A program made the position numbers and the translations under genes. A DNA stretch of 39,244 bases from a methanogenic archaeon (lineage in GTDB: Archaea > Thermoplasmatota > Thermoplasmata > Methanomassiliicoccales > Methanomethylophilaceae): contig CACWTF010000019.1 in NCBI GenBank assembly GCA_902763685.1, positions 1 to 39,244 of the forward strand. Reading direction: 5' to 3'. This document shows, piece by piece, positions 7,653 to 39,244 of the stretch (position 1 is the stretch's first letter; every line of letters starts with the position of its first letter). The notes beneath the pieces were generated by a model. That model made no database searches, was not told the DNA's origin, and saw nothing but the letters and a program-made list of their open reading frames with translations.

Positions 7653-8513
7653 ATGGACACCGACCCCGAATCCCTCTACCAGGAAGCATTGGAACTCATC
7701 GAGAAGGAGGAATATTCCGAAGCCGCCGACAGGCTGAAGATCGCCTCCAAGCAGAACCATATCCGTTCCCAGGTGGAATTGGGTTCCCTTTACATCACAG
7801 GCGACGGTGTCCCGTGTTCCCCCAAGGATGCCTTCGCACTGTTCCGTTCGGCCGCGGAGCAGGGCGATGCGGAGGCCATGTGCTACATCGGTCGTATGTA
7901 TCTCAACGGGGACGGCACCGAACAGTCCGACAAGAAAGCGTTCAGATGGTTATCCGAAGCCAAAGAGAAGGGCGAGACCGATGCCCTCAGCTGTCTCGGG
8001 TTCATGTACCACGAGGGGAAGGGATGCGAGAAGGATATCGACAAAGCACTTGAATGCTACACCGCCGCCGCGGAAGCCGGCGACCCGGAGGGTCCGTACA
8101 ACGCCGCTTCCATCTGTCTCGAGAAGGAAGACTACGGGAACGCCGCCAAATATTTTGAAATAGGAGCCGACGACGGCGACCCCGGATGCATGGCGGAGCT
8201 CGGATTGCTCTACAGGGACGGGAAGGGTGTGGAACAGTCCGCCGATAAAGCTGTCGAACTCTTCGATAAGGCTTACGCCGAAGGCAACCCCGACGGTCTG
8301 CTGTACAAATCCACTCTCTTTTACAACATGACCAGCATGGTTTGGGAGGCCGCCGATCACGGCAGCACCAAGGCCATGAACCAGCTTGCGGAGAAGTTCA
8401 AGGGCGACGCACAGAAGATCGCTCGTCTGGAGAAGGATTACAGGATTGTCCTGGAATCCGATCCCGACGCCGAATCCGATTATGCGGAGTTCAAGAGGAT
8501 AATCTCTCAGTGA
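7653..8513 (+). CDS. Sel1-like repeat protein
   Basis: A 286-residue solenoid of about six Sel1/TPR repeats. Repeats are recognised by turns such as LYITGDGVPCSPKDAFALF, MYLNGDGTEQSDKKAFRW, MYHEGKGCEKDIDKALECY and LYRDGKGVEQSADKAVELF, each about 36 residues apart. There is no signal peptide or membrane segment, so it is probably cytosolic. Sel1 proteins act as adaptors in complexes; nothing shows the partner here. The last seven bases overlap the 3' end of the convergent two-repeat gene on the other strand. Confidence 0.88.
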   Translation: MDTDPESLYQEALELIEKEEYSEAADRLKIASKQNHIRSQVELGSLYITGDGVPCSPKDAFALFRSAAEQGDAEAMCYIGRMYLNGDGTEQSDKKAFRWLSEAKEKGETDALSCLGFMYHEGKGCEKDIDKALECYTAAAEAGDPEGPYNAASICLEKEDYGNAAKYFEIGADDGDPGCMAELGLLYRDGKGVEQSADKAVELFDKAYAEGNPDGLLYKSTLFYNMTSMVWEAADHGSTKAMNQLAEKFKGDAQKIARLEKDYRIVLESDPDAESDYAEFKRIISQ

Positions 8514-9496
8514 TCCTCGTCGACGAACACCGCCAGGGAGTGGGCGAAGCCCGCGATCCTGGCGGGGTCGTCGTATTTGAACGCGAACGTAAGGACATCC
8601 CTGAGATACTCCTCGTAGGGCTTGGGCGAGTTCACCATCCCGTAGGTCATCCTCAGGTCGTTGAGTATCGAGGGTATGGGGACCTCCCTGAACACGTACC
8701 AGAAGCAGGCCTGCGCCGATACGCACAGCCTCACCATGCACGAGGACACCACATGTTTCTCCATGACGATCTGGGTTATCCCGTCCATCACCTTCTCGTA
8801 GTTCCTGTTCTGGAAATCCTCGATCAGATTGCGGAACATCCCCTAATCGTTGGTGGCGGGACAGAACAGTCCCAGCGGCTTGAAAAGAACCTCTCCCGTA
8901 TTGGGCAGCCTGGTGAGGTACTTGTGCGACAGCATCGCATACCAGCCGTTCTCGTCGATCCCCGAATAATCGTCGGAGACGATGACCGGACTGTCCTCGC
9001 CTGTGTAGATCTTCACCTTCTCGGCGAGCTCGTCGTCGCTCAGTTCCCCGTCGATCTCCTTCACAACTTCGGCAGCGAAGCTGAAATACGATTCCACCAC
9101 GGTGTTGACCCTCGCGGTGCACAGGAACGCTTCCTTCATCCTCTGCTGGTCGCCCACGGAGGGGACCCTGTTCTCCTCCAGCCACCAGCGGATGTGCGCA
9201 GCTATCGACAATTTCACAAGACCCAGACTTGCGACGCGGTTCTGTCTGATGTACTTCCTAATCTCAAGGAACGTCTCCTCGAAATCCCCGCGTTCGTATC
9301 CTTCGATCATGGATACGAGCTTCGCTCCGCAGACCCCTCCGGGGCTCCTGATGCCCAGCGGGGGGTACAGGACGGTCTCCGTGTTGGGGAGCAGTTTCAC
9401 TCCCCTGCTGAGCACCAGACGGAACTCCATGTCCTTGGTATCGTCCCTCTGCGGCCCTTCGGCCCTGTCCTTCTTCCCGAGGATTCCCATATCCAT
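8507..9496 (-). CDS. Two-repeat protein of unknown function with in-frame TAG (candidate pyrrolysine)
   Basis: I do not recognise the family. Reading from the ATG at 9494-9496 the frame meets TAG at 8843-8845, then continues open, in the same frame, to TGA at 8507-8509. Read through, it is 329 residues made of two homologous units. Unit 1 includes LPNTETVLYPPLG...MIEGYERGDFEE. Unit 2 includes LPNTGEVLFKPLG...LIEDFQNRNYEK, and the TAG falls between those two blocks of unit 2. The two units align without gaps across the TAG: 24 residues separate the blocks in each when TAG counts as one. The ATG two codons after the TAG has no ribosome site. This supports TAG as a sense codon. The alternatives are a recent nonsense mutation or a sequencing error. 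A TATA box on the minus strand at about 9551-9562 serves the gene. Confidence 0.7.
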
Positions 9497-33469: not shown

Positions 33470-34315
33470 TCATCTCTTCTTCACAAGAATTATGGCGACC
33501 ACCAGGAAGGCGGCGGTAACGCCGAGGACGTACAGCAGACTGGTGGCCGTATCGAACTGGAAATCCCACAGACTGAGGTCGAATCCCATCTTCGCCCTGA
33601 AGCTTGTGGAATCAATACCTGCGAAGGACTGGTCGAGTGCTCCTCCTGCGATGAGATCGCGGAAGATCGAGGACATGTGGGTGGCGGGCATCAGCGTTCC
33701 GACGACCTGCATCCCTTCGGGCATGGAACCCATGGGGATGTAGATTCCAGTGAGGAATCCTATCGCCACGCTGACGATGCTGAAGAAGCTAGCGAACCCT
33801 CCGGTGCTCTTGACGAACGATGTCAGAGCGTACATGATGATGCATCCGGAGAGGGATGCCGGAATGGTCAGAAGAACAGCTAAAGCAACGTTCACCGCAT
33901 CGAGGGGACATCCCGTAGCCACAAGGAACAGGAGCGAACCCGCGAGTATTATCAATGTGAAAAGGAACGCCGCCACGAAGGTCCCGAGGATGTATCCGAG
34001 GGCCAGTCTCCACTGTCCCGCGGGGGTCACAAGGAAATCGGTGTCCTTCCCTTCCGCACGGTCGGTGTTCATGGTCTGCAGGGCACCCATGCAGGATGTC
34101 ACGGAAACGATGCCTGCGATCCCCGCCAGCACCCAAGCGTCCATGAGGTTCGCCACGTCGGGCAGTCCCGCGTTGTCGGAGATCATCATGTCCCTGAGGA
34201 CGAACAGGTAGAGCATCACGACGATACCCGCCGCCATCAGCGAGAACACCACGTTCGCCCTGTCGCGGAAGAAGCAGATGCAGTTCCTCTTGACAAGTGC
34301 CAGGACGGTCCTCAT
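33470..34315 (-). CDS. ABC-2 type transporter permease
   Basis: A 281-residue integral membrane protein of the DrrB/NodJ type, with six predicted helices: one after the short basic N-terminus (VVFSLMAAGIVVMLYLFV), then AWVLAGIAGIVSVTS, ILGTFVAAFLFTLIILAGSLLFLVA, VNVALAVLLTIPASLSGCIIMYAL, FFSIVSVAIGFLTGIYIP and a last one at the C-terminus. It should pair with an ATPase of the kind found in the upstream fusion. It begins inside the fusion's stop (ATGA overlap), so it is coupled to that gene. Because that ATPase lacks Walker A, the exporter may not work unless another ATPase serves it. Confidence 0.88.
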   Translation of the reverse strand: MRTVLALVKRNCICFFRDRANVVFSLMAAGIVVMLYLFVLRDMMISDNAGLPDVANLMDAWVLAGIAGIVSVTSCMGALQTMNTDRAEGKDTDFLVTPAGQWRLALGYILGTFVAAFLFTLIILAGSLLFLVATGCPLDAVNVALAVLLTIPASLSGCIIMYALTSFVKSTGGFASFFSIVSVAIGFLTGIYIPMGSMPEGMQVVGTLMPATHMSSIFRDLIAGGALDQSFAGIDSTSFRAKMGFDLSLWDFQFDTATSLLYVLGVTAAFLVVAIILVKKR

Positions 34316-36465
34316 TGCAGTTCCTCCCCGGTGATGTTGATGAACGCTTCGTCCAAGGTTCCCGAACGGACCTCCACGGATTCCATGCAGTCCCCCATCT
34401 CCCTGATGATGGGGACGGAGTCCGCGGTCTTCTCCAGGAGGACGACGATCTTTTCGTTCTCCTTGGTGTACTGTATGCCCATCCCCTTCAGGCGGGATTC
34501 CGCCTCTTCCATGTCCCCGGGGACGAAGATGAGCTTGTCGGAACAGTACCTGTCCCTGAGTTCCGAGGGGGTACCGTCGGCCACGATGGAACCGCGGTTG
34601 ATGACCACGATCCTATCCGCACCGGAAGCCTCCTCCATGTAGTGCGTGGTTAGCAAAACGGTGATCCCGCGTTCCTTGTTGAGTCCGGTGATGAGATTCC
34701 AAATCAGACTGCGGGTCTTGGGGTCCAGTCCGGTGGTCGGTTCGTCCAAAATCAGAAGTTTGGGGTCGTGGATTAGAGCTCTTGCGATATCCGAACGTCT
34801 CCTCTGGCCTCCGGACAGCTCCCCGTACTTCCTGTCGGCGAATTCGACGCATCCCGTGGTGTCGAGTGCTTTCCGGACCGCATCCTTCAGTTCCTCCCCG
34901 TACAGTCCGTACAGCGAGGCCCTGATCTCCAGGTTCTCCCTCACGGTGAGGGTCTTGTCCTCCGCGATGGAGAGGGCATGCTCGGGGCATTCCTTCACGC
35001 ACTTGCCGCAGCCGGTGCAACCTTCCATCCTGCCCACCAGCTGGGTACCGATGTTGTGGATGATCTTGAGTCCCCTCTCTCCGAGGTCCTGGATATCCCT
35101 GACGGCGATGCGGTGGACGTTGGCGCGTCCGCGGGGACGGGGCAGCTCCTGGATGCCCTCGATGGCGTTGTTTGCGTTGTACTGCTCGAGTGAGAGTCCC
35201 TCGTCCCAGTAGGAGAGCTCCTGCAGGTAGATCTGTGAGAAGATCTTGTCCTGGGCGAACATGATGTGGTTGGCCCTGATGCTGTTGGCCACGCCCTGCA
35301 GCTTGTCCAGGAGCTCGGGCTCCCTGAGGATGTCGGTTGCCAAGGAAAGGGAGGTGTTGCCGTACTGGTAGATCTCGGTGGAGGACGGCGGGATGAGTCC
35401 GACGTCGCGTGCCTTGATGGCATCGACATACGTTCCGGATGCCCCGCACATGTACATGACATTCATGTCGGAGAACTTGATGCCCGCATGTTCCAGAAGG
35501 CAGAAATGACCTGCTCTCATGGCCCCGATCGCCTTGGCGGCCTCGCTGATGTCGTGGCTGTCGATGCTCACCCCGTCCTGCAGGTGGAGCATGCCGTCGT
35601 CGGTGGTCAGCTTGCCCTTGGTCCACAGGTGGTCGTACTGGGAAACGGCGACGGCGGCGATGACACCGGTACCGGTGATTCCGGTGGCCTTGCCGTGCAT
35701 CGGGCCCTCGTCGAGGGGTTCCTTGCCGAGGAGGAAATTGAACTTGTCCCCGTCCTGCGGGGTGATGTTCTCGTCGAGGACCTTGCATCTCCATCCGACG
35801 TCGTAATCAAGATCAGAGATCGCTCCGGGCCCGGCGAGCATACCGCATCTGATGGACTGGCCTTCCATGGCGGGTCCCGCGGCGGCGGAACCGGTGAAGA
35901 TGTCGTCGCCGACCTTCAGGGCCATCTCGGCGTTGGTCCCGTAATCTGTTACCATGCAGTTCCTGTCGTCCTCGAGGAATCCGGACTTGTACATCATGGC
36001 GAGGGCATCCGCACCGATCTCGTGCCTGATGGCGGGAGGGACGTAGAGTTCGGTACCGTCGGGGACCTCGAGACCCACATCGACCGCGGAGAATACGCCT
36101 GCGTTCCTCTCCTGGTCCTTGATCCCCCTCTCCCTCTTCGCGTTCTCTCCCGCGAAGGCGAGATCGTCCACGGGGATGCCCTGGAAGAGCGAGAGCTGGA
36201 TCGGGTTGCCGCAGATGCTCACGCGTTCGACCTTGTGGAGATCGATGCCGAGTTCGCGGATCACCTTGTTCTGTGTGTCCATGAGGATCCTGTGGGCGAT
36301 GTCGTTGCCCACGTTGATGCAGAATGTCAGGTGGTCCATCACATTCGCACCCGGGAGCGGGTGGCATTCCGTCACGACGGTGGACAGGACCTTGCCCGAA
36401 GAGAGTTCCACCGCATGTGCCCTGGTACCGCTTGTACCGATATCGATCGCAATTCCGTAGGTCAT
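34312..36465 (-). CDS. Chimera: RamA-like corrinoid activator fused to a truncated ABC ATPase
   Basis: Residues 1-500 are a RamA-like ASKHA activator, which uses ATP to reduce corrinoid proteins such as MtaC: IAIDIGTSGTRAHAVEL, VTDYGTNAEMAL, GITGTGVIAAVAV, and a ferredoxin-like CTGCGKCVKECP with cysteines 483, 486, 489 and 493. The protein then changes without a gap at about residues 499-505 (SIAEDKT) into an ABC ATPase from TLTVRENLEIRASLYGLY on. That part has LSGGQRRRSDIARAL, LLILDEPTTGLDP and TTHYMEEASGADRI, but no Walker A and no Q loop. The usual second Fe-S motif is absent too. A deletion joining two genes is the simplest origin; misassembly is possible. The start (MTYGIAIDIG) has a GGAGG site. 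Confidence 0.85.
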   Translation of the reverse strand: MTYGIAIDIGTSGTRAHAVELSSGKVLSTVVTECHPLPGANVMDHLTFCINVGNDIAHRILMDTQNKVIRELGIDLHKVERVSICGNPIQLSLFQGIPVDDLAFAGENAKRERGIKDQERNAGVFSAVDVGLEVPDGTELYVPPAIRHEIGADALAMMYKSGFLEDDRNCMVTDYGTNAEMALKVGDDIFTGSAAAGPAMEGQSIRCGMLAGPGAISDLDYDVGWRCKVLDENITPQDGDKFNFLLGKEPLDEGPMHGKATGITGTGVIAAVAVSQYDHLWTKGKLTTDDGMLHLQDGVSIDSHDISEAAKAIGAMRAGHFCLLEHAGIKFSDMNVMYMCGASGTYVDAIKARDVGLIPPSSTEIYQYGNTSLSLATDILREPELLDKLQGVANSIRANHIMFAQDKIFSQIYLQELSYWDEGLSLEQYNANNAIEGIQELPRPRGRANVHRIAVRDIQDLGERGLKIIHNIGTQLVGRMEGCTGCGKCVKECPEHALSIAEDKTLTVRENLEIRASLYGLYGEELKDAVRKALDTTGCVEFADRKYGELSGGQRRRSDIARALIHDPKLLILDEPTTGLDPKTRSLIWNLITGLNKERGITVLLTTHYMEEASGADRIVVINRGSIVADGTPSELRDRYCSDKLIFVPGDMEEAESRLKGMGIQYTKENEKIVVLLEKTADSVPIIREMGDCMESVEVRSGTLDEAFINITGEELQ

Positions 36466-36912: not shown

Positions 36913-36927
36913 ATTGGAGGAAAAAAA

Positions 36928-37710
36928 ATGATTGACTACAGCAAAGCGGATTTTTCCAAAATCCTCACTCGTTATGATGTCAAGATGCAGGTCGTCGAGA
37001 CACCCGAAAAAGCTGCAGAGAAGATGCTCCCCAAGGATCCCCTCATGAGGACCGTCGCGGAGTGTGTTCTTTTCAAGAACCTCAAGGAGATCATGCCCGC
37101 CATGAACGCGGCGATGGCAAAGAGCGCTCCCGCTGATGTCATCAACGGAGGTCTCGTCCCCGGTATCGAGGCAGTCGGATAACTCTACAATGACCATGTT
37201 TACTATCTTCCTGACATGATGGTCGCGGCCAAAGTCATGGAGGTAGGAATCAAAATGGCAGAGGCAAAGATGGGCGGAGCCCGTGAGACCAAAGCAACGG
37301 TCATCATGCACGCCGCAGAGGGAGATCCTCACGATATCGGAAAGAACATCGCAGCCGCAATGATGAAGGCTGCAGGTTACAACGTCATCGACCTCGGACG
37401 TGACGTCCCCGTACAGGTCGCCGTTGACAAGGTAAAGGAGATCAAACCCCTCTTCATCTCCGGAACCGCACTGATGACCACCACCATGTCCGCATTCCCC
37501 GCGGAAGCCAAACTCATGAAGGAAGCCGGCCTCAACATCCCCCTGATGGGTTGCGGAGGAGCAGTCAACAGGGAGTACGCAACTTCCTACGAACTCGGTA
37601 TCCACTCCGATAAAGCAAACCACACCGCGCCCATCGCGCAGAAACTCATCGATGGATACGACTGGAAGAGAATCAACGAGGAATGGGATTCCATCGTAGG
37701 AGGTGCATGA
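36928..37710 (+). pseudogene. mtaC: Methanol-specific corrinoid protein MtaC interrupted by in-frame TAA
   Basis: MtaC carries the cobalamin that takes a methyl group from methanol via MtaB. The frame is open from the ATG at 36928 (ribosome site GGAGG 6-12 nt ahead). TAA interrupts at 37180-37182, codon 85, then the same frame continues for 175 codons to TGA at 37708. The sequence runs GGLVPGIEAVG-stop-LYNDHVYYLPDMMVAAK, where relatives have a lysine (AAA/AAG); one A-to-T change explains it. The B12-binding GDPHDIGKN follows with histidine at codon 135. The stop falls in the helical cap domain, so neither part makes a whole MtaC. Pyrrolysine uses TAG, so it does not explain this TAA. Sequencing error or a real nonsense mutation are both possible. 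Confidence 0.85.
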
Positions 37711-37711
37711 A

Positions 37712-39112
37712 ATGGCTTCAATCAAATACAAGAGCATGGCATACAAATCTGCGGACGACATGGTAATGGGTACCGCAGTACACCCTGTGACCGAGGGATT
37801 CGGACTCAAGATCGGAGCCGGACAGGTCATCCCCGAGATCAACTACGCACCCAGGCCCGGAACCGAGAAGGAACCCGAGAAGCTCCGCAGGGAGTACGTG
37901 GACTACATCTCCACCGACTGTCTGAACAGGGCCATCACCGCCGGATTCCCCGCCCTCCACCTGGAGACCGAGTGGGTATCCCAGATGAACCAGGAGAAAC
38001 TCTCCGCACCCGTCGTCGCCGGACAGAAGGAGGTCTGCGAGAAATTCCACAACGAGTACGGAATCGCATGTGCCGTAAGGCAGACCATCCCCGACCAGCG
38101 TGAGCACGACGAGGGACTCAGGCCCGGAATGGACACCGTCCACTCCTACCCCGAGAAGTTCTTCCAGTGCTGCGACATCGCATGTGAGAACGGAGCCGAC
38201 AACCTTTCCGTCGAGTCCGTCGGAGGAAAAGAGTTCGCTGACTTCGCCGTCACCCAGGGAGATATCGTCGCCTTCCTCTACGGAGTCGGATACCTCGGAT
38301 CCATCGACATGGAATACATCTGGACCCAGATGGTGGACATCGCTAAGAGGAACAGGACCGTTCCCGGAGGAGACACCAACTGTTCCGGAGCGAACGTCGC
38401 CATGTTCATGGCCGGCGGTATGACCGACCTCGATGTCCAGAAGACCTTCTCCGCCATCACCCGTGCGATCTCCGCAGGAAGGACCATCGTAGCCTGGGAG
38501 TGCGGAGCATCCGGACCCGACAAGGACTGCGGTTACGAGGGAATCATCTGCAAATCCATCGCAGGAAACCCCACCACCCAGGAGGGTAAGAACTGTCAGT
38601 GCGCACACTGCGACCTGATGGGTAACCTGACCGCACAGATCTGCGACTGCTGGTCCAACGAGTCCGTCGAGTACCACCCCGAGTTCGGAGGAACCTCCGT
38701 ACAGTGCTGGCTCGGATCGCTCGGATACGAGACCGCCCTGATGAACACCGCCATCCAGACAGGAAACGCGAAGATCCTCCGTGACCTGTACAGGACCACC
38801 GACTTCACCAGGTCCCCCGAGTCCTACATCCTCGCATACGACCACGCATACGAGATCGGTCAGGCGATCATCGCCAACGGTGACGACTACTACACCAGGA
38901 CCAGGGCAGCCGCTCTGAAGGCAATCGAGATCATCAACCGCGGATACGACAAGAAGGAGCTCCTCCTTACCGTCAAGCAGAAGGAGACCCTCGACGACTG
39001 CCAGAAGAAGATCGAGGCCCTCCCCACGGAGACCGACAAGTTCGTCGAGCAGTGCCACAAGGAATACGACGGCGTGGTTCCCAACTACAACCTGAAGAAC
39101 TACGGCCTCTGA
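37712..39112 (+). CDS. mtaB: Methanol:corrinoid methyltransferase
   Basis: Zinc enzyme that moves the methyl group of methanol to the cobalt of MtaC, the first step of methanol-driven methanogenesis. The three zinc ligands known for M. barkeri MtaB (Glu164, Cys220, Cys269) map here to E168, C224 and C273, each four further on, in SVESVGGKE, DTNCSGANVAM and DKDCGYEG. The start at 37712 (MASIKYKSMAYKSADDM) follows an AGGAGGTG site within mtaC; the three-codon longer frame from 37703 overlaps mtaC and is unlikely. At 466 residues it is full length and highly codon-biased, hence probably strongly expressed. Its partner mtaC is interrupted, so function needs another MtaC copy. Confidence 0.97.
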   Translation: MASIKYKSMAYKSADDMVMGTAVHPVTEGFGLKIGAGQVIPEINYAPRPGTEKEPEKLRREYVDYISTDCLNRAITAGFPALHLETEWVSQMNQEKLSAPVVAGQKEVCEKFHNEYGIACAVRQTIPDQREHDEGLRPGMDTVHSYPEKFFQCCDIACENGADNLSVESVGGKEFADFAVTQGDIVAFLYGVGYLGSIDMEYIWTQMVDIAKRNRTVPGGDTNCSGANVAMFMAGGMTDLDVQKTFSAITRAISAGRTIVAWECGASGPDKDCGYEGIICKSIAGNPTTQEGKNCQCAHCDLMGNLTAQICDCWSNESVEYHPEFGGTSVQCWLGSLGYETALMNTAIQTGNAKILRDLYRTTDFTRSPESYILAYDHAYEIGQAIIANGDDYYTRTRAAALKAIEIINRGYDKKELLLTVKQKETLDDCQKKIEALPTETDKFVEQCHKEYDGVVPNYNLKNYGL

Positions 39113-39123
39113 AACCATTAAAA

Positions 39124-39145
39124 GGGCGGGCCGCAAGGCCTGCCC
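39124..39145 (+). terminator. Hairpin after mtaB
   Basis: GGGCGGGCC (39124-39132) pairs with GGCCTGCCC (39137-39145) with one G-U pair, around a GCAA tetraloop, 12 nt past the stop. A second hairpin, AGCCGTTCC (39148-39156) with GGGACGGCT (39170-39178), follows directly. Confidence 0.7.
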
Positions 39146-39244
39146 TCAGCCGTTCCGTTCGTTGTCAGCGGGACGGCTTCCTCTAACATTAACCGAAATC
39201 CGATGTCTGGAACAGTGTTTCCCGACGTCAAAAAAATCAAAAAA

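Follow-up and report, generated by a model that had tools for sequence, protein, structure and literature searches.

Near the right end of the window, the whole 39,244-nucleotide stretch analysed here (contig C19, CACWTF010000019.1, of assembly GCA_902763685.1, from a methanogenic archaeon of the Methanomethylophilaceae), lie mtaC, which encodes the methanol corrinoid protein, and mtaB, adjacent to it as in a single operon. An in-frame TAA occupies codon 85 of an otherwise complete mtaC. The draft, metagenome-type assembly comprises 89 contigs and 1.54 Mb, with a completeness of 93.8%, and our analysis leans towards an assembly or consensus error as its probable source. The features of the locus are as follows:

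36916–36920, plus strand: GGAGG, the ribosome binding site of mtaC (read directly)
36928–37710, plus strand: mtaC, methanol corrinoid protein, interrupted at codon 85 (translation, homology, Pfam and NCBIfam profiles)
37180–37182, plus strand: in-frame TAA, codon 85 of mtaC (read from the sequence, with codon comparison to relatives)
37699–37703, plus strand: GGAGG at the mtaC end, where mtaB may initiate independently (read directly)
37712–39112, plus strand: mtaB, intact, the sole copy in the assembly (Pfam, NCBIfam, assembly search)
39113–39244, plus strand: tail 3' of mtaB to the end of the contig (no other match in the genome)

Translation from the ATG at 36928, which follows the GGAGG at 36916–36920, yields a 260-codon MtaC with a single in-frame stop, the TAA, past which the frame carries on without any indel being required for alignment. 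The read-through protein is 91% identical over residues 1–260 to that of the closest relative (genome G023), and it aligns over nearly its whole length with the MtaC of PDB 2i2x (E 5e-58). Both the helical domain (PF02607, residues 51–110) and the B12-binding domain (PF02310, residues 124–218) are present, the latter with its DxHxxG motif as GDPHDIGK, and together with the 2i2x match they led us to reject a chance open frame; two NCBIfam MtaC models were the best-scoring ones, yet scored under their cut-offs. The peptide spanning codon 85 reads GIEAVG-x-LYNDHVYYLPDMMVAAK. The sequence-only reading of this DNA had described homology on both sides of the stop, a kept frame, a good ribosome site and an intact mtaB, and all of this stands, MtaB being whole by its match to PF12176 (E 1.4e-204). 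As assembled, mtaC lacks the uninterrupted single reading frame of a functional MtaC gene; mtaB, having its own GGAGG, could still be translated if the TAA were real.

In relatives, codon 85 is a sense codon: mostly lysine (AAG or AAA), valine (GTC) in both copies of ISO4-H5, a rumen Methanomassiliicoccales isolate of the same genus as the source genome (presumably our genome G014), and threonine (ACT) in genome G022. The equivalent residue in 2i2x is arginine, and TAA at this codon was common to none of the relatives compared. Because the relatives differ (AAG, GTC, ACT), it is uncertain which codon was ancestral, and this position tolerates change. The earlier statement that a lysine codon lies one base away is thus true of AAA, but the closest relative carries AAG, two bases from TAA, and others have valine or threonine. 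Within the genus, the content of mtaBC varies. ISO4-H5 and genome G017 each have two tandem pairs, and one of the two tandem mtaC copies of ISO4-H5 (L055 3740–4519, minus strand) reads TAG in frame at codon 70, which the literature gives as a predicted pyrrolysine (PMC5011839). Genome G011 (99% complete), also of this genus, is without mtaB and without a close mtaC, so methanol use has apparently been lost within the genus. An apparent two-frame mtaC in genome G016 was rejected as a frameshift, being an N gap.

Changes on this branch, polarised with ISO4-H5 and G022, comprise 13 synonymous and 5 nonsynonymous ones in mtaC (9 and 2 after the stop) and 22 and 10 in mtaB, and neither the comparison of mtaC with mtaB nor the ratio after the stop shows a difference (Fisher p 1.0 and 0.70). 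With this 13:5 ratio and no indels, mtaC shows neither the relaxed selection nor the further damage of a pseudogene, although a very young nonsense allele is still compatible with these counts. A simple Poisson bound places any end of selection within the most recent ~10–20% of the branch that leads here from the G023 split. Given that selection on mtaC is not relaxed, the stop would therefore be either an error or very young, in agreement with the earlier claim that decay, if any, is very recent.

The neighbourhood is not otherwise intact: the sequence-only reading missed the fault in the adjacent ramA open reading frame (ORF), which lies on the same contig, is divergent from mtaC and most likely represents an assembly chimera, with its in-frame join ~2.2 kb from the TAA:

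34312–36465, minus strand: ORF of 717 codons joining RamA residues 1–507 (36465 to ~34941) in frame to an ABC ATPase's second half, which lacks the P-loop (profiles, comparison)
34939–34959, minus strand: the chimera junction, ~20 bases encoding DKTLTVR (comparison of both genes)
33470–34315, minus strand: ABC-2 permease, partner of the truncated ABC ATPase (profile, gene order)

The junction word resembles motifs of both genes, DDKTITVK in RamA and DKVLTVRE in the ABC ATPase. In ISO4-H5, ramA (encoding the corrinoid activase) is intact at 540 codons, and ~390 kb separate the mta cluster from the ABC operon, located near 615 kb. The 26 missing C-terminal RamA residues (CLGTACYRCQMSCPQKVYQYNQLKLV) were found at the end of contig C73 (L245 5487–5564, minus strand), where they are 85% identical to ISO4-H5 RamA, and the genes that follow them are the ones that follow in ISO4-H5. 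At the word CLGTACY, the 3' end of ramA runs into the outermost 72 bases of that contig (L245 5565–5636), which code for part of a HydC/NuoE-type protein (PF01257; best PDB match 7q4v chain C). The HydC/NuoE-like gene was found nowhere else in the 1.2 Mb of the genome examined, nor was the N-terminal half of the ABC ATPase found there, and the HydC/NuoE fragment possibly comes from another organism of the sample. Because ramA is split by two joins at short shared words, and putting its pieces back together recovers the gene order seen in relatives, we infer that misassembly, not a rearrangement in the cell, divided the gene.

Faults of the assembly extend to other contigs. A pheT-like gene (identified by eye from its ISO4-H5 match) on C71 (L243 ~2129–2160) is 49 bp short relative to ISO4-H5 and frameshifted, likely through an assembly collapse, while nop5 (also identified by eye) on C17 (L137 19738–19760) begins with ACG where 11 of the 11 relatives inspected have ATG (TAAACGGCG), either a consensus error or an unusual start codon. 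Contigs C12 and C49 both terminate within mtmB. Several stops and two of the three frameshifts met in the ISO4-H5 comparison were discarded as antisense shadow ORFs. The contig under study stops 132 bp past mtaB, and in ISO4-H5 the second mtaC begins ~220 bp past mtaB; the DNA past the contig end may hold another mtaCB pair. A termination at a shared repeat was rejected, the last 132 bp matching nothing else in the genome. A search of the assembly for further copies, as the sequence-only reading had proposed, found no second mtaC or mtaB, even as a fragment.

Because of the chimeras beside mtaC, we consider an assembly or consensus error more likely than a genuine nonsense allele of very recent origin, and infer that the TAA base itself is wrong. 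In this reading mtaC would be an ordinary gene, the stop having arisen in the consensus or assembly at or near a badly assembled locus, and a sense codon at position 85, giving full-length MtaC, would be present in the actual cell or in most of its population. The sequence-only reading had already allowed for such an error, and the nearby ramA chimera together with the faults elsewhere makes it a serious option. Also in its favour are the unrelaxed selection on mtaC and the finding of just one TAA-interrupted gene in 1.2 Mb. Several observations nonetheless weigh against it. On either side of the TAA the sequence is continuous, with codons that agree with those of relatives, and no chimeric join falls at the base itself (a join there was considered and rejected, as the cluster of rarer codons 3' of it is common to G022 and ISO4-H5). 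The known faults are mostly joins or deletions, the nop5 start being the only other single-base anomaly and one that could be real, and G011 and the TAG-bearing ISO4-H5 copy make a lost or interrupted mtaC plausible in this genus. A genuine nonsense mutation, by which this strain or part of its population recently lost this mtaC copy, is a substantial contender, if a less probable one. Translation would then end after 84 residues, within the N-terminal helical domain, with no full-length MtaC from this copy; the organism would live on methylamines or other methyl donors, or rely on a second mtaCB beyond the contig end. The presence in the genus of genomes without mtaBC and with two tandem pairs fits such a loss, as do the distance at which the contig breaks off after mtaB and the presence of mtmB and other corrinoid proteins in the genome. 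Purifying selection up to the present bounds the age of the stop to less than ~10–20% of the branch since the G023 split, and prokaryotic in-frame stops are mostly young population polymorphisms (PMC7918605). Against it, the adjacent misassembly lowers trust in the base, and the backup copy is absent from the assembly, fragments included.

Explanations that dispense with recoding are, taken jointly, very probable. Functional readthrough, in which the UAA at codon 85 would be decoded (for example as lysine) and full-length MtaC made, could draw on the preservation of mtaC on both sides of the stop and on a site that accepts lysine, arginine, valine or threonine, where a misread residue would be tolerable. 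To look for such decoding, coding potential on the two sides of each stop was scored against that of the five other frames, over 783 kb and then over 1.2 Mb, and terminators were counted over coding ORFs of at least 100 codons in the 1.2 Mb. TAA ended 113 of these ORFs, TGA 862 and TAG 16, and mtaC was the sole gene interrupted by TAA, the other TAA candidates of the scan looking, from their start sites, like neighbouring genes that share a frame. The tRNA loci scanned, a set that is incomplete like the assembly itself, yielded none with a UUA anticodon; of two suppressor candidates that were discarded, an intron-containing hit on C5 (L087) reads CAU and a short hit (L115) looks like an arginine tRNA reading UCU. 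There is no unusual RNA structure 3' of the mtaC stop (z -0.42), a review of archaeal recoding carries no mention of UAA (PMC8211752), and the recoded genes of this genome use TAG, the codon of pyrrolysine-containing genes, where mtaC has TAA. With no UAA-reading tRNA among the loci scanned, and a stop that neither is conserved in relatives nor recurs in the 1.2 Mb, the TAA suppression raised by the sequence-only reading finds no backing, and a genuine, translated UAA in this pyrrolysine-using archaeon, including the variant in which codon 85 passed through TAG (pyrrolysine) to TAA, is very improbable. Still more doubtful is a split protein, with residues 1–84 and a product restarted at Met97 acting as two cooperating pieces: an in-frame ATG at 37216 does open a 164-residue ORF that retains the B12-binding domain, but no ribosome site precedes it (TTACTATCTTCCTGAC), the break would fall within the helical domain, and none of the relatives is divided in this way.

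As expected for a pyrrolysine user, ~13–15 genes in the 1.2 Mb are interrupted by TAG, among them mtmB and MttB/MtbB-like, geranylgeranyl reductase-like and aminotransferase-like genes (named by eye from sequence). Five in-frame TAGs outside the methylamine genes are pyrrolysine candidates, at L148 3980 (plus strand), L157 14617 (minus), L158 15230 (plus), L131 8536 (minus) and L151 16149 (minus), in genes that include aminotransferase-like, geranylgeranyl reductase-like, phosphonopyruvate decarboxylase-like and other types. In the window itself, 8507–9496 (minus strand) holds two similar-looking domains in one frame, with TAG at 8843–8845 followed by GGG ATG; it has no Pfam match and represents two neighbouring genes or else a fusion made by pyrrolysine readthrough.

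The locus mainly calls for caution, since ~2 kb separate a striking nonsense codon in a key methanogenesis gene from a chimeric, in-frame join to which automatic annotation would give the name of a RamA–ABC fusion protein. Where lost, fused or recoded genes are claimed on the basis of this draft genome, reads should back the claim. Should the TAA prove real, it would mark a fresh loss of the methanol pathway that could help to date substrate specialisation in gut methanogens.

Compared with known systems, mtaC resembles the young in-frame stops and nonsense polymorphisms of prokaryotes (PMC7918605) in showing purifying selection on both sides of the stop, but differs from them in that its TAA is known from a single draft archaeal genome. 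The Methanosarcina barkeri MtaC (PDB 2i2x chain B) is of similar length (258 residues against 260 here) and has its B12-binding motif in the same place, but carries arginine at position 85 where the TAA interrupts the gene here. The MtaC1 of ISO4-H5 (PMC5011839) belongs to the same genus and the same gene and is likewise interrupted in frame, at a helical-domain site that varies; there, however, the codon is a TAG at position 70, decodable by tRNA-Pyl and accompanied by an intact second copy next to it, whereas here it is a TAA at position 85, undecodable by known means.
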